DNA of 32,572 bases from a virus, in IMG/VR virus record IMGVR_UViG_3300025806_000113, positions 1-32,572 of that record; one strand, written 5' to 3'. Both the position numbers and the translations under genes were made by a program. The notes beneath the pieces were generated by a model. That model made no database searches. It was not told where the DNA came from and saw only the letters and a program-made list of their open reading frames with translations. Below are positions 6,087-31,148 of the stretch, one piece after another. Position 1 is the first letter of the stretch, and every line of letters begins with the position of its first letter.

Positions 6087-7527
6087 AAAGCAAAAGCTCC
6101 TAAAGTTAATTCAGGAGAAAGAGGAAAGACGAAAGTTTAACCAGATAAAGGAGTGGGTTCCTTATGGTTGGCAGGAGTCTTTGTCTAATGCAACACTTGA
6201 AAACAATCAGTGTCTTGCAATGGCGGGTAACCGAGTTGGTAAGACGTACACTGGTGCAAGAATTACTGCCTGCCATCTAACAGGGATATATCCTGATTGG
6301 TGGAAAGGCAAAAGATTCACTAAGCCTATAAATGCTTGGGCTGCTGGTGCTAGTACAGTTACAACTAGAGATATTTTACAGAAAGAATTACTTGGTGATC
6401 CAGTTAATCAAGACATGAGGGGATCTGGTGCTATACCTAAAGACTTTATCCATAGTGTTGTTAGAAAACCGCAAATACCGAACGCAGTAGAGAGTATTGT
6501 AGTAAAGTTTCATAACGCTTTTGGCGTACACATTGGTGAGTCTGTTGTGTCGTTTAAGTCTTATGAAATGGGTGAAGAGAAGTTCATGGGTTCTTCTCTT
6601 GATTGGATTTGGCTAGATGAGCAGCCAGCACAGAACATATACACTCAGTGTCTTACTCGGACACTGGACAAAAGGGGGTACGTCATGATGACGTTTACTC
6701 CTGAAAGTGGAATGACACCAGTTATAAGTCAGTTTATGAACGACAGAAAGCCTGGTCAGTTCTTAATACAGGCAGGGTGGGATGAAGCGCCTCACTTAGA
6801 TGAGGCCGCTAAAGAGCAGATATTAAGTCAGTATCTCCCAAACGAAAGGGATATGAGGACAAAAGGTCAGCCGGTATTTGGTAGAGGTATGGTTTTTCCA
6901 TACTCATTGGACAAACTTGTTGTTGATGATTTCCCAATACCTGATACTTGGCTCAAAATATGCGGTATTGACTTTGGGTTTGATCACCCAACAGCTATTG
7001 TTTGGGGAGCAATAAACCCAGACAATGGTTGTTTTTACATTTACGATGAATACAGAGAGTCAAGGCAGACTCCTACAATGCACTCAATAGCTTTAAAGGC
7101 TAGAGGGTCTGAGCCACCAGTTGCATGGCCTCACGATGGTAACAGATCGTTTGACGGTGGCGACAGCATGGCTACACAATATAGACAAGAAGGCGTTAAT
7201 TTGTTGCCTGAGCATTTTACAAATCCTCCTGATATATCGCAAAAGAAAGGCGATATAAAGATATCAGCAGGCATTACTGCAATGTCTCAAGCAATGGAAA
7301 AGGGTCTTTTTAAAGTTTTTAAAAGTTGTTATTTTTGGCAACAAGAATACGGCCAATACCACTTTGGCGACCAAGGCAAAATTGTTGATAAAGACGATGA
7401 TTTGATGTCTGCTTCTAGGTACTGTTACCAGAGCAGACGGTTTGCTGAGAAATCTAGAAGCACAGCAAACAAGAAAAAAAGACCTTGGGAAAAACAAAAT
7501 AAATCTACTTATGATTGGGTTATTTAA
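6061..7527 (+). CDS. terL: Terminase large subunit (packaging ATPase and nuclease)
   Basis: The 488-residue protein powers DNA packaging and cuts the genome. The N-terminal ATPase has a Walker A motif GNRVGKT (residues 56-62) and a Walker B motif IWLDE (183-187). The nuclease domain begins with GIDFGFDHPTAIVW (302-315), where Asp304 is the first metal-binding acid. A later WPHDG segment and DDDLMSASRY near the end supply further acidic residues. An ATG at 6061 is chosen; an upstream TTG would add five residues without support. The gene overlaps the small terminase by 26 bases and ends in TAATG with the portal gene. Confidence 0.9.
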   Translation: MSKNLSTAEKQKLLKLIQEKEERRKFNQIKEWVPYGWQESLSNATLENNQCLAMAGNRVGKTYTGARITACHLTGIYPDWWKGKRFTKPINAWAAGASTVTTRDILQKELLGDPVNQDMRGSGAIPKDFIHSVVRKPQIPNAVESIVVKFHNAFGVHIGESVVSFKSYEMGEEKFMGSSLDWIWLDEQPAQNIYTQCLTRTLDKRGYVMMTFTPESGMTPVISQFMNDRKPGQFLIQAGWDEAPHLDEAAKEQILSQYLPNERDMRTKGQPVFGRGMVFPYSLDKLVVDDFPIPDTWLKICGIDFGFDHPTAIVWGAINPDNGCFYIYDEYRESRQTPTMHSIALKARGSEPPVAWPHDGNRSFDGGDSMATQYRQEGVNLLPEHFTNPPDISQKKGDIKISAGITAMSQAMEKGLFKVFKSCYFWQQEYGQYHFGDQGKIVDKDDDLMSASRYCYQSRRFAEKSRSTANKKKRPWEKQNKSTYDWVI

Positions 7528-9479
7528 TGCTTACAAATAAAGACCTTCTTTCAAAGATACAGAGCTATGAAGACAATGTGTCTGACAACCTAGATAGTGA
7601 TGCATCTCAGACTCGCGCAGATCTTATGCGCTATTATCTTGGTGAAGAATATGGCAATGAAAGAACTGGCTACTCATCGATAGTTACAAGAGAGGTTTTT
7701 CAAACAGTAGAAAACATAAAATCAGACATTGCTGAATTGTTTATTGCTGATGATGAGACTGTTAGATTTGAGCCGCAAGGGCCAGAAGATGTTGAAGCAG
7801 CCCAGCAAGCAACAGATTATATCCGCTATGTCTTTTACCGACAAAACGATGGCTTTTCAAATGTTTTAGACAGCCTATACGATGGGCTTCTCCAGCGTCA
7901 GGGCGTTATCAAGCGATGGCGCTCTATGGAAGATGAGATAACAACTCATTCTTTTGAAAACATATCAGAACAAGCGTTTCAAATACTTCAAGCAGACCCA
8001 GAAGTTGAAATAACTGAATTTGAAGAGTCTATAGATTTAGAGACTCAGATGATTTCTTTTGATGGAAAATTAATTAGAACTCAAGAGAAAGGAAAAACAA
8101 GGATTGAGGTTATACCTCCAGAAGAGTTTGCCATACATCGTGACGCAACAACGATTGAAGACGCAAAGTTTGTTCGTCAAAGAAGCATGAAGTCAGCAAG
8201 TGATTTAATCGCTATGGGTTTTTCCAAGGAAAAAGTTAAAAACCTTGGATCGTCAACAGGTTATACCGAATACGATTCTCCTGAAAGAATTGCTCGCCAG
8301 TTTGACACAGACGATTACGGTGAAGAAGGCAATGACATTATCAAGATGTATGACCTTCATGAAGTATATATGCGGTGTGATCGCAATCAAGACGATTATG
8401 ATGAGCTTTTAAAGGTTTGCTTAGTAAACAATGTAATACTAAATATTGAAGAAGTTGATGAGATACCTTTTGTTATTTGGACTCCTATTAGGATTTCTCA
8501 CAGACTTACAGGTCTTTGCCCAGCGGATGCTGCTGCCCCAATACAAAAAATGAAAAGCCAGTTGTGGCGGAATCAGCTAGACAACCAATATAACCTAAAC
8601 AATGGACGACCAATTGTTGTTGAAGGTCAAGTTGATCTAGATTCCGTCATGAATAGTAAACCAGGCGCTCCATATCTGGTTAAGCATCCAAACGGCATCT
8701 CATTCCCTCAGCAGCCATCTTTTGGCACTCACACCTACAATATGATGGGTATAGCTGATCAGATGCTAGAGCAGGATGTAGGCTCTACTGACAACACTAT
8801 TAGCCCAGATATATTAAACGGAAACACCGCATCAGGCGCTGTTAGTCAGGTTCTATCTAAGCGACAGGCCCGTATTCGCTTGATAGCTCGTGAATTTGGT
8901 GAGTTTTTGCGTAAAGTCTTTATGGGTGTTTATGAGTTAGAAATAGCTCATGCTGAAGATAAGAGTATATTTCGTTTAGACAATAAATTTGTTGAAGTTG
9001 ACCCTCGTAGCTGGAATGCGCGAAAAGATGTAACGGTTCTTGTTGGTTTGGGTAATGGAAACAAGACAGAACAACTATTTCATATGCAGCAGACTATGCA
9101 AGCACAGCAAGCTATGGTATCTAATGGTGGCATGGGTGTTACCGTACTTCCACAGCAAATAGTACAATTGCAAGAGGATATGGTTAAGCTGTTTGATAAA
9201 AGCGCTCATGGTAGGTATTTCACTATGCCAGACCCTGAATTTACTGGTCAACAGGAAGGTCCATCACCTGAGCAGCAAGCTATAGAAGGTCAATTGCAAA
9301 TAGAGCAAGGCAAGCTACAAATCAAGCAGGCCGAACTTCAGTTAGCGCAAGCCGAGCTTGAAATAAAGCAAAAAGAGTTTGAGCTTAAAGTAAGAGAGCA
9401 TGAGGACCAAAACGAATTTAAGTTAGCTGAGTTAAACCTGGAGGCAAGAAGTGACAGAGCCGTCAAGATTGGCAATTAG
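7527..9479 (+). CDS. Portal protein, SU10-like
   Basis: The 650-residue protein forms the dodecameric ring through which DNA enters and leaves the head. The N-terminus has the pattern RYYLGEEYGNERTGYSSIVT followed by REVFQTVENI, which I recognise from portals of the SU10/P22-like group, and a conserved IPPEEFAIHRDA segment lies near residue 195. The C-terminal 70 residues are Gln/Glu/Lys-rich and strongly helical, probably a barrel or coiled coil. The ATG at 7527 overlaps the terminase stop; a TTG twelve bases earlier is less likely. Position directly after the terminase supports the call. Confidence 0.85.
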   Translation: MLTNKDLLSKIQSYEDNVSDNLDSDASQTRADLMRYYLGEEYGNERTGYSSIVTREVFQTVENIKSDIAELFIADDETVRFEPQGPEDVEAAQQATDYIRYVFYRQNDGFSNVLDSLYDGLLQRQGVIKRWRSMEDEITTHSFENISEQAFQILQADPEVEITEFEESIDLETQMISFDGKLIRTQEKGKTRIEVIPPEEFAIHRDATTIEDAKFVRQRSMKSASDLIAMGFSKEKVKNLGSSTGYTEYDSPERIARQFDTDDYGEEGNDIIKMYDLHEVYMRCDRNQDDYDELLKVCLVNNVILNIEEVDEIPFVIWTPIRISHRLTGLCPADAAAPIQKMKSQLWRNQLDNQYNLNNGRPIVVEGQVDLDSVMNSKPGAPYLVKHPNGISFPQQPSFGTHTYNMMGIADQMLEQDVGSTDNTISPDILNGNTASGAVSQVLSKRQARIRLIAREFGEFLRKVFMGVYELEIAHAEDKSIFRLDNKFVEVDPRSWNARKDVTVLVGLGNGNKTEQLFHMQQTMQAQQAMVSNGGMGVTVLPQQIVQLQEDMVKLFDKSAHGRYFTMPDPEFTGQQEGPSPEQQAIEGQLQIEQGKLQIKQAELQLAQAELEIKQKEFELKVREHEDQNEFKLAELNLEARSDRAVKIGN

Positions 9480-9735
9480 TTTAGATTGCGAGAATGCGGA
9501 TTTAGATAAGAAAATAAAAGTTGCAAATGCAGCTTATAGATTGATAAACGATGATTCGGTTAAGTTTATCTTTCAGGAAATGCAAGAAAATTTATTTAAA
9601 GCATTCTCTTCTGTTCAGACACCAGAGGTTGGCGAGTCTGTTTGGAGAGAAGTTAAAGTTATTAATGCATTGAAAGACAATTTGGAGTGGTATGCAAACC
9701 AACGAGAAAGTCTCGCAAAACGAGCAAGAAAGTGA
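9451..9735 (+). CDS. Conserved small phage protein between portal and scaffold
   Basis: The 94-residue protein is mostly helical, with an AYRLINDDSVKFIFQEM segment and a C-terminal helix of the form WREVKVINALKDNLEWY. Small proteins of this type often sit between portal and scaffold genes in phages, but I know no function for them. The start is a GTG: a strong GGAGG lies six bases before it, and the next in-frame ATG would remove most of the protein. The gene overlaps the portal end by 29 bases. Confidence 0.7.
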   Translation: MTEPSRLAISLDCENADLDKKIKVANAAYRLINDDSVKFIFQEMQENLFKAFSSVQTPEVGESVWREVKVINALKDNLEWYANQRESLAKRARK

Positions 9736-9907
9736 AGAATATTACATAGTGTCTGAATCAATTATGAATTGGATGCGGTCGGTGGCTTATACAAAGCTAA
9801 CGATGCAAGAAGTCGATGGTAAGGTTGAAGAATTGTGGGCTTGTCCTACTGTTCAACAGTACCTTGATCTGCAACAAGAAAAGAAACCCCAAATTATTAC
9901 TAATTAA
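9692..9907 (+). CDS. Hypothetical small protein before the scaffold gene
   Basis: The 71-residue acidic protein begins Gln/Glu-rich and contains a helix around SIMNWMRSVAYTKLTMQEV. Its ATG is preceded by GGAG at about five bases. It overlaps the previous gene by 44 bases in another frame, more than most pairs here but typical of small phage genes. No family is recognised. The position between portal and scaffold suggests a structural or assembly accessory. Confidence 0.6.
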   Translation: MQTNEKVSQNEQESEEYYIVSESIMNWMRSVAYTKLTMQEVDGKVEELWACPTVQQYLDLQQEKKPQIITN

Positions 9908-9942
9908 AGGACAACGGGAAACCGACCCTTGAGGAAGCAAAA

Positions 9943-10977
9943 ATGTTAGACAATGAGAACAACTCTTCGGAACTCTCTAATGAACCCATTACACAGGATG
10001 CTGGAATAGAGGCAATAATGGGCATGGTCAATCCTAAAGAAGATTTAGGAGAAATTGAAAATGAACCTGTAGCTGAAGTTGAATCTGAAGAATACTCTGA
10101 AGATGAGACTGAAGAAACCCTTGATCAGATTGAAGACGATGATTCTGAGGAAAGTGATTTAGCGGAAGATTATTCTGGCGAAATCGAGCTTGATCCTGAT
10201 GATTACGAATATTTAGTCTCTGCCAAAGAATTTCTTAACAAAAATGGTCTTGACGACATTAAGAAAATTGAAAACGGCATATTGATGCAAGGTGATTATA
10301 CTCGCAAGACTCAGGCATTATCTGAAGAACGTAAGGTTTTTGAAGAACAGCGTAATAGCAATCTAGAAGAGACTGCAAAAATGCTGGAAACTGCCCAGGC
10401 TATGATCTTAGGTCAAAAGCCAGAGCTTTCAACTCAAAAACTTATGGAGTTAAAACAGACAGATCCTTATGCTTATGAAAAGGCATTGGAAGCTAAAGTT
10501 GTTTATGAACAGCGTCAAGAAGAAATCACTGCTGCTCAAAATCAAGTTGCCGCGCAGTATCAAGAGCAACTAAAAGAAGCAGAGAAACAAACTTCAATTG
10601 AACAAGCAGCAAAACTTATGGAGTTAGAGCCAAGTTTTTCTAACCAAACAACTGCTGTTAAGAATGTTGAAGTTATCAGTGATTACTTTGAAAGCATTGG
10701 TGGAGATACAGAAATGTTAAACTCTATTAATGACGCGCTGGTCTTAAAAGTCCTTTATGACGCAGCTACAGCTAACAAAGCTCAAAAACAGGTTGCTAAA
10801 GTAAAAGCTCCTGCAAAGAAAAAGGCATCAAAAACTGTTTTACGAAAAGGTGTGTCATCAAGTCGAGCGGAAAAACAGGCTGCGGCAAATTCCAAAAAAC
10901 TAAAGGATGCCACTAATCCAGATGGCTCATTTAGTCAACAAGCTGCCGTAGATTTAATTCTCGATTCTTTTAAATAG
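9943..10977 (+). CDS. Capsid scaffolding protein
   Basis: The 344-residue protein would guide assembly of the coat shell and then leave it. Residues 10-90 are extremely acidic (runs of Glu, Asp and Ser). They are followed by the motif QGDYTRKTQALSEER, which I recognise from many phage scaffolding proteins, and then a long coiled coil rich in Gln, Ala and Glu. The C-terminus has a basic, Lys/Ala-rich patch (KVKAPAKKKASK), as expected for binding coat protein. The start follows GAGG by seven bases. It lies immediately before the major capsid gene, the normal order. Confidence 0.8.
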   Translation: MLDNENNSSELSNEPITQDAGIEAIMGMVNPKEDLGEIENEPVAEVESEEYSEDETEETLDQIEDDDSEESDLAEDYSGEIELDPDDYEYLVSAKEFLNKNGLDDIKKIENGILMQGDYTRKTQALSEERKVFEEQRNSNLEETAKMLETAQAMILGQKPELSTQKLMELKQTDPYAYEKALEAKVVYEQRQEEITAAQNQVAAQYQEQLKEAEKQTSIEQAAKLMELEPSFSNQTTAVKNVEVISDYFESIGGDTEMLNSINDALVLKVLYDAATANKAQKQVAKVKAPAKKKASKTVLRKGVSSSRAEKQAAANSKKLKDATNPDGSFSQQAAVDLILDSFK

Positions 10978-10987
10978 GTAAAATATC

Positions 10988-12025
10988 ATGGCTACAATTA
11001 CATCAACCTCAGTACCAGTTCTTACTGGTCAAGGCAACATTCGTGAAGATTTAGGTAACGTAATCTTTAACGTAACCCCTTTCCAGACTCCATTTACTTC
11101 TGGAATTCCTCAAGCTCGCGTAACTGCTGACACTCATGAGTGGCTGACCGATACTTTGGCAAACTCTGTCTCTGACAACGCAGTAGTTGAAGCGGGAGAT
11201 CCAATAGCTGCTGTTGCAGGTTCAACTCGTACTCGTAAAGGTAACTTCATTCAAATCGCTGATACTTCAGTTGTTGTAACTAAGAAAGCTGAATTCATGG
11301 ATCGTGCAGGTGTTCCTGGTCGTGAAATGGCTTATCAGTTAATGAAGAAAGGTAAAGAGCTACAAATGGATGTTGAAAAACAAACATTGCAGGCTTATGG
11401 CTTAACTCCTAACACAGGCGGAACTCCTGCTGCTACTAAGCGTCAAGGCACTTCAGGTGATCCAGGCGTTTCTGCGGCTGTTGGCTCTTGGATTCTTTCT
11501 AACCAAGAATTAAATGCTGCAACTAACGCTTCTTTAAACACTGCTTCAGATGGAACTACTGTTCCCGTAATTGGTTCTGGCGGCACTCCAACAAACATCA
11601 TTAACCAAACTAGAATGGATAATTTGCTTGACGGTGTTTGGAATAACTCTGGCGATATTAATAGCGCAAAGATCATGGCAACTGCTGGCACTGTTTCTTC
11701 ATTTCGCGCCTTAAGCGGCATGGCTGACAATGTTGACACCAACTTAAACGGTAACTCTACTAGCGGTGGTAACATTATCTCTCGCGTAGCTGTTTACGTT
11801 TCTCAGTTTGGCCCAATTGCTGTTGTTCCTAACAAGCATATGCCTGCCAACACTTTGTATGTTCTTGATTTTAGCACTTGGGGTCTAGCATTTGCTGGTG
11901 GTAAGAAGATTCATACCACTGATATTGCTACTCGAACTTCTGCTGAACAGAAACTTCTAGAGTGTTATTACACTCTTGAGTGTCGTTCTGAAGAAGCTAA
12001 CGGTGCTTACTACAACATTACATAG
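10988..12025 (+). CDS. Major capsid protein, SU10/DUF5309 type
   Basis: The 345-residue protein forms the head shell. The N-terminal region has VTPFQTPFTSGIP followed by a THEWLTDTLA strand and RKGNFIQIAD, the hallmarks of the SU10-like coat family (DUF5309), recalled by eye. Central residues about 130-200 are Gly/Thr/Asn-rich and may form a surface insertion. The C-terminal part contains ISRVAVYVSQFGPIAVVPNKHMP, a typical HK97-fold strand and helix region. The gene follows the scaffold by eleven bases and is followed by a terminator-like hairpin. Confidence 0.85.
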   Translation: MATITSTSVPVLTGQGNIREDLGNVIFNVTPFQTPFTSGIPQARVTADTHEWLTDTLANSVSDNAVVEAGDPIAAVAGSTRTRKGNFIQIADTSVVVTKKAEFMDRAGVPGREMAYQLMKKGKELQMDVEKQTLQAYGLTPNTGGTPAATKRQGTSGDPGVSAAVGSWILSNQELNAATNASLNTASDGTTVPVIGSGGTPTNIINQTRMDNLLDGVWNNSGDINSAKIMATAGTVSSFRALSGMADNVDTNLNGNSTSGGNIISRVAVYVSQFGPIAVVPNKHMPANTLYVLDFSTWGLAFAGGKKIHTTDIATRTSAEQKLLECYYTLECRSEEANGAYYNIT

Positions 12026-26594: not shown

Positions 26595-27305
26595 TTATGC
26601 CAGTTGTTTAATTTGCTTTCTTTCTAGTGTTGAGAAAAACGCTTCTTGCGGGTATTTACTTGGTGCTACCCAAAGCGCAAGTTGATCTTCTTGAGGAATG
26701 CATGACCATGCTCCCATAGCCTCCTCGTAGTGTTTTATCTTTTCTGACCCCTCCTGAAGCCCGTTATGTATTGCCAAATGCTTTCTCATGTAATCAAGAG
26801 CCTCTCTGTTTCTATCAACCGCATCTGCACAAGCTTTTGCTTTTGTCTCATGAGAGTAGTCTTGATTAACACTCCCATCAACCGTAATGACCTCCTCCTG
26901 CGGCTTTCCCCGCATCATCGATGCCTCGCTGTCATCATCCACAGAGGGAACTCCTGCAAGGGCTGCCAAAGAGTACCTACGGGCGTAAGTAATTGCGCTG
27001 CCAGCAGCTTGCGGGTCTTGCTTGGCTAGCGGCAAATAGAACTCTTCTTCTATCCACTGGCCACTAAGGTGCATCAAGATGGTTTTAACACCGACACCAT
27101 TGCCACCTGAAGAGTTAACAGGGAATTGGGCGTATGATAAGCCATTGTTAACAAAAGGTTGTTTAATTGTTTTGATAACGCTAGTAAGGTCAGCGTAATT
27201 AGATTTAAAGAATGGGTTCTTGCTGTCTTTAACAGCACCGCCCATTTCGTTCTGCGCCCTGCTAAGTGCGGCAGCAAGTTCGTTTATATTTTCTGATTTG
27301 TTCAT
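26595..27305 (-). CDS. erf: ERF-family single-strand annealing protein
   Basis: The 236-residue protein belongs to the ERF family, which anneals complementary single strands during phage recombination and genome circularisation. It has the conserved NPFFKSNYADLTSVIKTI segment (residues 27-44), VKTILMHLSGQWIEE, and the signature AGSAITYARRYSLAALAGV (about residues 101-119). The C-terminal third is unrelated to the conserved core and probably helical. A strong AGGAGGGG precedes the ATG. The gene neighbours the SSB-tailed and NinG-like genes, giving a compact recombination cassette. Confidence 0.9.
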   Translation of the reverse strand: MNKSENINELAAALSRAQNEMGGAVKDSKNPFFKSNYADLTSVIKTIKQPFVNNGLSYAQFPVNSSGGNGVGVKTILMHLSGQWIEEEFYLPLAKQDPQAAGSAITYARRYSLAALAGVPSVDDDSEASMMRGKPQEEVITVDGSVNQDYSHETKAKACADAVDRNREALDYMRKHLAIHNGLQEGSEKIKHYEEAMGAWSCIPQEDQLALWVAPSKYPQEAFFSTLERKQIKQLA

Positions 27306-28120: not shown

Positions 28121-28303
28121 ATGCAACCAAACAGTTTGATTTACGATGAAATGCTTAGTTATTTTGGTTCTGTTGAAAATATAGCTAACTATTACGACAC
28201 TACTCCACAGGCCGTTTATCAATGGAGGCAATGGGTTCCGGTTCTTAGGGCTAGGGAGTTTAAATTGCTTCTTAAGTGGAGGGAGGCAGAAAGTGAGCAT
28301 TGA
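28121..28303 (+). CDS. Cro-like transcriptional regulator
   Basis: The 60-residue protein has a helix-turn-helix of the Cro type: YFGSVENIANYYDTTPQAVY followed by QWRQWVP, closely similar in layout to P22 Cro, where helix 2, a tight turn and SQWK recognise the operator. It would repress the early promoters between it and the leftward operon. No opposing CI-type repressor gene is found, so it acts in a lytic rather than a switch setting. A strong AGGAGG precedes the start. Confidence 0.8.
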   Translation: MQPNSLIYDEMLSYFGSVENIANYYDTTPQAVYQWRQWVPVLRAREFKLLLKWREAESEH

Positions 28304-28688
28304 TAAATTAGTGGAAAGGCTTGATAACTGCAAGGAAGTTAAGCCACGCAGAGGTCATCAGCAGTCATGGATTGCAAGATGCCCAGCTCATGATGACACC
28401 AAGCCTTCTTTGTATGTTGACCTTGCCCAGAATGGAAATATTTTGATTAAGTGCTGGACTGGTTGTGGTGCTAATGATGTGATTGAGTCAGTAGGTATGC
28501 ACCCAGTTGAGCTTTTCCCAGAGGACGGTTACCAGCAAAGGTCACACAGAGAAATCAAGAAAGACTCTGACTGGAGAGAAATCCATCTTTCTATAGCAAA
28601 AACAAGGAGAGAGCAGGGTAAAACCCAGACCGCTAAGGAAAAGGAAGAGGAGTTGCAGTCTTACTTAGCCCTGAGAGGCTCTGTATGA
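28293..28688 (+). CDS. Primase-like zinc-ribbon protein without catalytic domain
   Basis: The 131-residue protein matches only the zinc-binding front part of phage and plasmid primases: RCPAHDDTKPSLYVD, then KCWTGCGANDVIESVG. Cys30, His33, Cys54 and Cys58 probably hold one zinc ion. No TOPRIM or polymerase motif follows; the remainder is a charged helical tail. It may guide template recognition for a host primase. The GTG start is supported by GGAGGGAGG just upstream. It overlaps the Cro-like gene by eleven bases and the initiator gene by four. Confidence 0.75.
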   Translation: MSIDKLVERLDNCKEVKPRRGHQQSWIARCPAHDDTKPSLYVDLAQNGNILIKCWTGCGANDVIESVGMHPVELFPEDGYQQRSHREIKKDSDWREIHLSIAKTRREQGKTQTAKEKEEELQSYLALRGSV

Positions 28689-29323: not shown

Positions 29324-29336
29324 TCGGAGGATTAAG

Positions 29337-30203
29337 ATGTGGATAATACCAAAGAATTACCAACCGTCATCAGCTTTTGTTCTGGCTACGGTGGAATCGA
29401 AAGAGGACTTGACCTTATTGGAGTCGAACATAGAGTCATCGCTTACTGTGAGATCGAAGCCTATGCAATTGCAAACTTGCTTGCGAAAATGGAAGCGGGA
29501 TTATTGGTTCCGGCACCTGTGTACACATCTCTTGCTACCTTCCCAGCGCACTTGTTTCGAGATGCAGTTGACATCATCGTTGGCGGGTATCCGTGCCAGC
29601 CGTTTAGCACGGCAGGTAAGCGAGAAGGAGAAGGAGACTCAAGACATCTTTGGCCACTTATTCGGAGACATACACAAGCAATTAGACCTTCTAGGGTCTT
29701 CTTTGAAAATGTCGAAGGCCACATCTCGCTTGGACTCTCCAGCGTCATCAGCGACTTGGAAGAAGATAGTTATAGAGCAACGTGGGGAATATTCTCAGCG
29801 AGCGAAGTTGGCGCGCCTCACCAAAGAAAACGAGTCTACATCATGGGCGACTCCGAATACAATGGATTATTTGCCGCAGAGAAGCGAGGAAGCGACTCTG
29901 AAGATGGCTACAGGGCAAAGGAAGGGCAGATCGAGGCCATCCAATCTGAGAGAGCAGGTGAACCCCAGAGCTGTAGAGATTTATCAGGAGGTCAAGAGTT
30001 GGCCGACACCAAGGGCGAGCGAGTACAAGGATTGCGGACCAGTGGGGAGCAAGAGCCAGATCCACATGGACAAAAGAAGCTACCTTTGTGCGAAAGTCAA
30101 GGAAGAATCAAAGCCGACTGGACTGCTGAACCCAGACTGGACAGAGTGGTTGATGGGGGTCCCAATCGGGTGGACAGAATTAGGCTGCTGGGGAACGGAG
30201 TAG
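29337..30203 (+). CDS. Overlapping second frame inside the methyltransferase gene
   Basis: A 288-codon frame runs without a stop over almost the whole methyltransferase gene in the +1 frame. Its ATG at 29337 is fused to the methyltransferase GTG as ATGTG, six bases after GGAGG. The second half carries motifs known to me from phage proteins tied to methyltransferase loci: SWATPNTMDYLPQRS, GRSRPSNLREQV, SWPTPRASEYKDCG and LNPDWTEWLMGVPIGWTEL. Its N-terminal third looks random, so translation may begin later or by frameshift from the enzyme frame. It could also be an unexpressed frame kept open by chance or codon bias. I rate it possible, not proven. Confidence 0.35.
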   Translation: MWIIPKNYQPSSAFVLATVESKEDLTLLESNIESSLTVRSKPMQLQTCLRKWKRDYWFRHLCTHLLLPSQRTCFEMQLTSSLAGIRASRLARQVSEKEKETQDIFGHLFGDIHKQLDLLGSSLKMSKATSRLDSPASSATWKKIVIEQRGEYSQRAKLARLTKENESTSWATPNTMDYLPQRSEEATLKMATGQRKGRSRPSNLREQVNPRAVEIYQEVKSWPTPRASEYKDCGPVGSKSQIHMDKRSYLCAKVKEESKPTGLLNPDWTEWLMGVPIGWTELGCWGTE

Positions 30204-30265
30204 TGCCGCAAACAGCAGCGAAAGCGTGGCAAGTATTAAATCGGAGGATGCATGAAGAAAATTGA
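29339..30265 (+). CDS. Cytosine-5 DNA methyltransferase
   Basis: The 308-residue enzyme would transfer a methyl group from S-adenosylmethionine to cytosine C5. Motif I is SFCSGYGGIERGL (residues 12-24), motif IV is GGYPCQPFS with catalytic Cys86, motif VI is FENV (122-125), motif VIII is QRKRVYI, and motif X is LLGNGVVPQ near the end. The region between VIII and X, normally the target-recognition domain, is short and of low-complexity composition. The start is GTG at 29339, eight bases after GGAGG, because the next ATG lies beyond motif I. Methylation of phage DNA would give protection from host restriction. Confidence 0.85.
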   Translation: MDNTKELPTVISFCSGYGGIERGLDLIGVEHRVIAYCEIEAYAIANLLAKMEAGLLVPAPVYTSLATFPAHLFRDAVDIIVGGYPCQPFSTAGKREGEGDSRHLWPLIRRHTQAIRPSRVFFENVEGHISLGLSSVISDLEEDSYRATWGIFSASEVGAPHQRKRVYIMGDSEYNGLFAAEKRGSDSEDGYRAKEGQIEAIQSERAGEPQSCRDLSGGQELADTKGERVQGLRTSGEQEPDPHGQKKLPLCESQGRIKADWTAEPRLDRVVDGGPNRVDRIRLLGNGVVPQTAAKAWQVLNRRMHEEN

Positions 30266-31148
30266 TTTGACAGACAAAGAGCTTATGAATTTTATAGGCC
30301 AGCAGGAGAGTCAAGAGGTTGGTGACTTCTCAAGCTATTCAGAGAGGGTTGCTAGTCATCTAAGGAGTGGCGCAAGGTTAATTGGGGATAAGTTACCGTG
30401 GGCTAAGACTCACGATTACGTCAGGTGTGGTGAGGGTCAATTAAGCATTTGGGCTGGCATAAACGGGCATGGCAAGTCAGAGCTTGTTACAAATGTGATG
30501 ACTCACTTCATGCTAAATGGTCGAAAGGTTTTAATAGCTAGTATGGAAATGAAACCGGAAGAGATATTGACCTCAGTGTGCAGTCAGGCAGCAGGGTGTG
30601 AGCCGTCAGTTAAGTTCAGCCAAGGTTTGTTAAATGACTTAAGTGAAACCGGATTTATTTATGAGTGCGAAGGTCGTGTAAAGAAGGAGCGGATGCTTGG
30701 CTTAGTTCATTATGCTGGCTCAGAGTTAAAGATAAACCATATGGTCATCGACAGTTTAACTATGTGCGTTAATCGTGACGACTATGAGGGTCAGGCTGAG
30801 TTCTGCAACAACTTAAGGGCTGCGGCAAAACAATGGAATATGCATATTCACCTTGTTGTTCATATGAGAAAGGGTGAGAGTGAAAGCAAGATGCCAAATA
30901 AGTATGATATTCGTGGCGCTGGAGAGATATCAGACTTAACTGATAAATTGTTTATTGTTTTTAGAAATAAGCAGCGCGAAAAGAACCAAGAGAAGTTTGG
31001 CGATCAGCCTGGGGTATGGCTTGCGCTAGAAAAGAACAGGCAAGACGGTGATGAGGCTAATTTTGGGTTATACTTTCACAAGCAAAGCAAACAATTTACT
31101 GCTTTTGAAAATAAAACTATGAATTTATTTAGAGGTAATAAGGTTTGA
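30252..31148 (+). CDS. DnaB-type replicative helicase core
   Basis: The 298-residue protein has the RecA-like motor of DnaB-family helicases: Walker A-type GINGHGKSE (about residues 69-77), MEMKPEEI, Walker B HMVIDSL, HLVVHMRKG, and IRGAGEISDLTDKLFIVFRN, which contains the arginine-rich end motif region. It lacks the N-terminal primase-binding domain and begins with a short helical segment. It would unwind DNA after loading at the iteron origin by the O-like protein. GGAGG precedes its ATG, and it overlaps the methyltransferase end by 14 bases. Confidence 0.8.
   Translation: MKKIDLTDKELMNFIGQQESQEVGDFSSYSERVASHLRSGARLIGDKLPWAKTHDYVRCGEGQLSIWAGINGHGKSELVTNVMTHFMLNGRKVLIASMEMKPEEILTSVCSQAAGCEPSVKFSQGLLNDLSETGFIYECEGRVKKERMLGLVHYAGSELKINHMVIDSLTMCVNRDDYEGQAEFCNNLRAAAKQWNMHIHLVVHMRKGESESKMPNKYDIRGAGEISDLTDKLFIVFRNKQREKNQEKFGDQPGVWLALEKNRQDGDEANFGLYFHKQSKQFTAFENKTMNLFRGNKV

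Follow-up and report, generated by a model that had tools for sequence, protein, structure and literature searches.

Two overlapping, selected reading frames in a phage methylase gene point to a nested two-subunit C5-cytosine methyltransferase

Overlapping frames at the methylase locus

The window analysed here, a stretch of 32,572 nucleotides that corresponds to positions 1 to 32,572 of the IMG/VR virus record IMGVR_UViG_3300025806_000113, contains a locus in which two long reading frames overlap on the plus strand. Frame A (29339–30265) begins with GTG and encodes a protein of 308 residues, referred to as alpha; frame B (29337–30203) begins with ATG, lies in +1 relative to frame A and encodes a protein of 288 residues, referred to as beta. 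The two start codons are merged in the sequence ATGTG (29337–29341), with the ATG at 29337 opening frame B and the GTG at 29339 opening frame A, and the Shine-Dalgarno sequence GGAGG (29326–29330), recognized from the sequence, is common to both. An earlier note on this DNA had described such merged starts behind a single GGAGG as well as an open +1 frame of 288 codons; both are present, and every motif that it quoted for the second frame is found in frame B.

The same merged layout, ATGTGGATA, occurs in most of the IMG/VR homologues. Within 111 distinct homologue start regions, frame B starts two bases before the GTG of frame A (ATGTG or GTGTG, the frame B codon being ATG in 94 and GTG in 17), and an SD-like tetramer lies upstream of the merged start in 72 of the 111. 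Lineages with frame B closed upstream typically start beta about 60 codons into frame A, for example AAAGGAGAGCTTTTATG, and a Shine-Dalgarno sequence of at least 5 nt is found at these internal starts in 20 of 30 loci, the background being 13%. The internal starts of loci L002, L004 and L006 and of Clostridia are close to the position of an internal ATG of our beta (Met76, 29562–29564), which is probably not the main beta start in this phage because the Shine-Dalgarno sequence there is weak.

The genes around the locus are those of a phage: a portal protein (phrog_1216), a major head protein (phrog_1328), an Erf-like annealing protein and a DnaB-like helicase are encoded within 7515–12022, 26595–27302 (minus strand) and 30252–31148, the helicase gene being located directly downstream of the methylase. 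Upstream of the latter, a 131-residue open reading frame (28293–28688) has a match to DNA primase families (phrog_6088, E 2e-12) that is confined to their N-terminal part. No restriction endonuclease was recognized among ten further proteins scanned from this stretch.

Alpha (29339–30265) matches the PFAM family PF00145 over residues 9–204 (E 2e-29) and phrog_363 among the PHROGs (E 1e-56). It carries the core of a C5-cytosine methyltransferase (motif I, the PCQ of motif IV, the ENV of motif VI and the QRxR of motif VIII), the segments GYPCQP, ENV and HQRxR being invariant in the alignments. Motifs I–VIII belong to a predicted catalytic domain (residues 4–176, 29348–29866; pLDDT mostly above 90), followed by a segment predicted to be disordered (residues 177–284, 29867–30190; pLDDT below 50 throughout) and by a motif X helix, GNGVVPQ..., modelled with a pLDDT of 92–97 (residues 285–307, 30191–30259). 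Assignment of methyltransferase motifs to this frame by the earlier note is thus borne out. On the other hand, neither motif IX nor the small domain with the target recognition domain (TRD), which in PF00145 proteins other than the known split members usually share the chain with the other motifs, is found in frame A. The AlphaFold2 model of alpha aligns end to end with M.HhaI minus the small domain (Z 19.8, 195 residues, rmsd 3.1); it thus contains the catalytic domain and the motif X helix but lacks the small domain. The segment 177–284, which had been taken for a low-complexity recognition region, has rather the appearance of a linker that leads to motif X; its DNA also encodes the recognition region and motif IX of beta. 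The end of alpha with motif X matches the ends of both the phrog_363 and the phrog_1008 profiles, and it was its fit to phrog_1008, the family matched by frame B, that first suggested that both frames might encode parts of a single enzyme.

Searched against the PHROGs, frame B matches phrog_1008, annotated 'DNA methyltransferase', over residues 77–281 with an E-value of 2e-18, a naive value inflated by the conservation of frame A (see below); the same family is matched by all 93 aligned B proteins. This comparison with phage proteins had been proposed as a check. Rather than the phage-protein domain originally envisaged, frame B appears to be the missing motif IX and recognition half of the same enzyme. 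PFAM and NCBIfam searches with frame B alone gave nothing above cut-off, a sequence search of the PDB gave chance matches only, and AlphaFold2 modelled beta on its own with low confidence (pLDDT 60, pTM 0.27). Beta is composed of a long N-terminal extension, a putative target recognition region of the W/LxTPxAxD type with two 'W.TP' modules (residues 170–260, 29844–30116; WATPNTMD..., SWPTPRASEYKD...) and motif IX (TGLLNPDWTEWLMGVPIGWTEL; residues 261–282, 30117–30182). Motif IX is the most conserved part of frame B (z 34.6 against the shuffled sequences described below), and most of the segment with the TP modules reaches z values of 14–23, with 5 at codons 239–252. The C-terminus of beta, LNPDWTEWLMGVPIGWTEL, resembles in form the motif IX of C5 methyltransferases, which reads RKLHPRECARVMGYPDSYKV in M.HhaI; hhalign pairs precisely these two segments, motif IX of beta being placed on TRKLHPRECARVMGYPDSYKV of M.HhaI, a weak match to a single-sequence target (probability 0.4%, E 0.17). 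The DNA of EWLMGVPIGWT, thought earlier to encode motif X in the other frame, reads DRVVDGGPNRVD in frame A and sits just 5' of the frame A motif X (RLLGNGVVPQ): the observation was nearly right, the two motifs adjoining each other rather than sharing the same DNA.

Among the homologues, the stretch between motifs VIII and IX lengthens by approximately 30 residues per 'W/LxTP' unit (0–6 units per gene, r 0.78). The number and order of the units differ from one homologue to another, and the same cassettes appear at differing positions. This length growth, together with the shifting cassettes, suggests a modular recognition of the target by the TP units.

Selection on the two frames

The conservation of frame B was compared with a null model in which the synonymous codons of frame A are shuffled, using 35 diverged representatives less than 60% identical to each other in A. 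Stops throughout the second frame, which the earlier note had named as evidence against a second gene, are not what the homologues carry: these 35 sequences hold 32 frame-B stops where 267 are expected from the shuffles, and most of the residual ones come from loci where B opens only inside A (L002, L004 and L046, for example). The third frame contains 650 stops for 662 expected. In the phage studied here the 288 codons of frame B hold no stop where 7.5 are expected, and none of 300 shuffles was free of stops. Moreover, from codon 1 to codon 280 the loci resemble each other in frame B more than the shuffles predict (z approximately 94 overall and approximately 35 at motif IX), and this excess disappears just past the B stop codon (z 1.9 and –3.0). 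The null ignores common ancestry, which is covered in part by this loss of signal and by control genes from the same loci at 35–62% identity, whose median z is 1.0 vs. 8.3 for the methylase; the downstream helicase, with three homologues, was unsuitable as a control, and other genes of the loci were used instead. Silent-site conservation, another check proposed for this DNA, points the same way: differences at fourfold-degenerate sites amount to 0.32–0.34 vs. 0.62–0.66 in control genes (50–70% identity). Conservation of the third frame is likewise above the null (z 34), and since its number of stops agrees with the expectation, we read this value as a by-product of silent-site constraint.

A profile of frame B was built only from distant loci, namely those of bacteria and named phages. 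The frame B of our phage scores 183 bits on it, and 1000 shuffled genes score 82 bits on average and 122 at most; the fact that shuffled genes still average 82 bits means that a naive E-value for frame B is inflated by the conservation of A.

In the reciprocal test, frame B was kept fixed, its synonymous codons were shuffled and the stops of frame A were counted from motif VIII to motif IX. In this stretch a single frame-A stop was observed at 197 loci where 709 are expected, the alpha linker being stop-free in 196 of the 197 nested loci, whereas the third frame shows 1540 stops for 1417 expected. This implies that frame A is translated continuously to motif X. Judged from the sequences, the dual coding is not due to chance and both frames are under selection. 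The claim that the second frame is a real one, and the nested gene among the meanings proposed for it, are thereby strongly supported, frame B being kept open and conserved far above the constraint imposed by A in phages as well as in bacteria.

Homologues and natural rearrangements

Searching phage records by tblastn with both frames placed them at the same positions in widely different phages (those of Acinetobacter, Lacticaseibacillus and Microcystis and one gut phage), with frame B in +1 of frame A. In Paenibacillus larvae phages both frames are already annotated, as overlapping 'DNA cytosine methyltransferase' genes. Both frames match in 166 of 168 loci, and B is in +1 at 124 of 125 distinct loci, the remaining one (Rothia phage Spartoi) having all parts in one frame. 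The first 80 loci were retrieved with B as query; the sets seeded with A escape this bias, and they show motif IX in the B frame and motif X in the A frame at 144 of 159 loci (74 of 79 distinct viral and 70 of 80 bacterial ones, the latter including Rhodobacteraceae, Clostridia, Pseudomonas, Bacteroidales and Verrucomicrobia). Motif IX was found in the third frame at none of these 159 loci. The layout is common to hundreds of phages and bacteria, and its second half usually goes without annotation. It also occurs on a bacterial plasmid (pAP1 of Paenibacillus polymyxa, locus L171), where the +1 frame contains, further along, a second motif IX stretch (LNPTWVECLMGFP ... LNPAWVECLMG), which looks like a duplication of the recognition block.

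Several relatives distribute the motifs differently. Motifs IX and X are both in frame B at loci L149, L151, L155, L256 and L176, a split similar to that of M.AquI; where motif X is in the B frame, frame A usually closes a few codons past motif VIII (L149, L151, L155, L154, L256 and L176). Relatives from Streptomyces and other actinobacteria and from actinophages have IX and X in frame A, and their open +1 frame retains 'LLPTPxAxD' modules. Fused proteins with IX and X in the A frame match almost the entire PF00145 profile. In the actinobacterial and actinophage relatives at loci L172–L180, L234, L237, L242 and L247 the 'LLPTPxAxD' modules of the +1 frame end just 5' of motif IX.

A probable nested two-subunit enzyme, its rivals and known systems

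The locus most probably encodes a nested two-subunit C5-cytosine DNA methyltransferase of the M.EcoHK31I type. Both frames are open and selected, motif IX is in B and not in A, fused relatives exist, and the alpha model lacks the small domain. Frame A would provide the AdoMet-binding and catalytic core with motifs I–VIII, a disordered linker of approximately 108 residues and a motif X helix predicted to pack on this core; frame B, very probably the DNA-recognizing half, would provide the part of the small domain missing from alpha, that is the recognition modules and motif IX, preceded in this lineage by the long N-terminal extension. One ribosome-binding site could serve both starts here (the ATG of beta and the GTG of alpha, 2 bases apart), and in other lineages beta would initiate inside alpha from an embedded Shine-Dalgarno sequence. 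The two expressed proteins would then assemble into one active enzyme, which probably methylates the phage DNA at a target sequence set by beta, most likely as a protection against host restriction.

A single-polypeptide enzyme could also arise by programmed frameshifting, with ribosomes leaving A for B once motif VIII has been read and returning to A ahead of motif X, and the earlier note had proposed a frameshift that swaps the recognition region. A single-frame relative exists (L005), and the layout of L149, L151, L256 and L176, in which A ends near motif VIII and B holds IX and X, could be used by one +1 shift; the nested form, however, would require two. Moreover, a product made only by fusion would not need frame A to be kept open through the recognition region as strictly as the reciprocal test indicates, and B possesses its own starts as well as an N-terminal region that precedes any shift site and is conserved. 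A conserved shift signal and an upstream frame that closes soon afterwards are the usual marks of programmed frameshifting; frame A does not close in this way, and no slippery or stop-type motif is shared by the 196 frame junctions. Frameshifting is thus not needed to explain the locus and we consider it unlikely.

Still less likely is the possibility that beta is a separate protein with another function (e.g., a nuclease, a regulator of the methylase or an anti-restriction protein) whose gene simply happens to overlap that of the methylase. There is a precedent in the out-of-frame HNH endonucleases within phage methylase genes (ShiLan element, PMC11855218), and no PFAM family corresponds to frame B. 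Yet B holds precisely the motif IX that is missing from A, single-frame relatives hold the same motifs within the methylase, no HNH or nuclease match was obtained for B in PHROGs, PFAM or NCBIfam, and the ShiLan element is a sporadic insertion whereas B occurs in nearly all loci seeded with A. Finally, frame B might be a by-product of the protein sequence and codon use of A that yields no product. Frame A does impose some similarity on B, as the scores of the shuffled genes on the distant profile indicate, but the best of these remains far below that of the real frame, and the z of approximately 94 with matched controls, the halved fourfold divergence and the embedded Shine-Dalgarno sequences all speak against this explanation, which is very improbable indeed and, as far as sequence allows, already refuted.

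If the nested two-subunit reading is true, many phage and bacterial genes annotated as one 'DNA methyltransferase' encode half an enzyme, the recognition half having been overlooked because gene callers usually reject overlapping frames. This would account for inactive cloned methylases and misassigned specificities. The families phrog_363 and phrog_1008, both matched within 29337–30265, look like two reading frames of the same genes, and a count that treats them as distinct methylases would reflect an artefact of annotation. The locus would also represent an unusually broad case of same-strand dual coding across phages and bacteria, the natural in-frame, split and nested versions of which could show how overlapping genes arise and dissolve. 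More tentatively, and with somewhat less than even confidence, we propose that in a large and mostly unannotated branch of C5 methyltransferases the target specificity is a mosaic of exchangeable second-frame modules. Any module exchanged in this way would have to leave the catalytic frame open and encode a flexible linker there, and during evolution motifs IX and X would have changed frame, so that nested, AquI-like and single-chain forms turned into one another.

The closest known system is M.EcoHK31I, whose alpha subunit has 309 residues and whose beta subunit is encoded within the gene for alpha, in another frame. Our locus shares with it the two overlapping frames, both of which are under selection here. 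M.EcoHK31I (YGGCCR) was described as a two-polypeptide C5 methyltransferase by Lee, Kam and Shaw in 1995 (PMID 7870574, as cited in PMC3404938), and the latter places motifs I–VIII and X on the larger subunit and motif IX on the smaller one, both subunits being required for methylation in vitro. The same distribution is observed here, and on every testable feature the locus would work like M.EcoHK31I, the likeness being one of motif and frame layout. The present case differs in being a phage gene with merged ATGTG starts and a beta that spans nearly all of alpha; in addition, the recognition modules appear in beta, whereas the predicted TRD of M.EcoHK31I is placed in the larger subunit (PMC3404938). 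M.AquI (CYCGRG) is likewise made of two polypeptides, the smaller one with motifs IX–X (PMC3404938), a distribution found in variants L149, L151 and L256; in our phage, by contrast, the larger subunit retains motif X and beta lies nested in +1. The ShiLan element, the nearest case reported from phages, also combines alternative-frame coding with an open methylase frame, its HNH endonuclease being a sporadic homing insertion (PMC11855218), whereas the second frame described here is conserved family-wide and carries a methylase motif IX. With the monomeric M.HhaI and M.HaeIII, alpha has in common the catalytic domain and the motif X helix, and the locus the same type of motif IX, but in those enzymes a single chain carries the TRD together with every motif, and alpha is without the small domain. 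Multispecific C5 methyltransferases of Bacillus subtilis phages contain several swappable TRDs, each with its own target. The short recognition-like modules that separate motif VIII from motif IX, in numbers that vary between genes, resemble this arrangement, except that the modules here are in a second reading frame. No published description of this phage methylase family was found in the open-licence literature. Compared with the systems above, several features are new: the gene belongs to a phage, beta begins at a merged start and extends over almost the whole of alpha, the layout is widespread among phages and bacteria, there is evidence of selection in both directions, and motifs IX and X have changed frame among the relatives.
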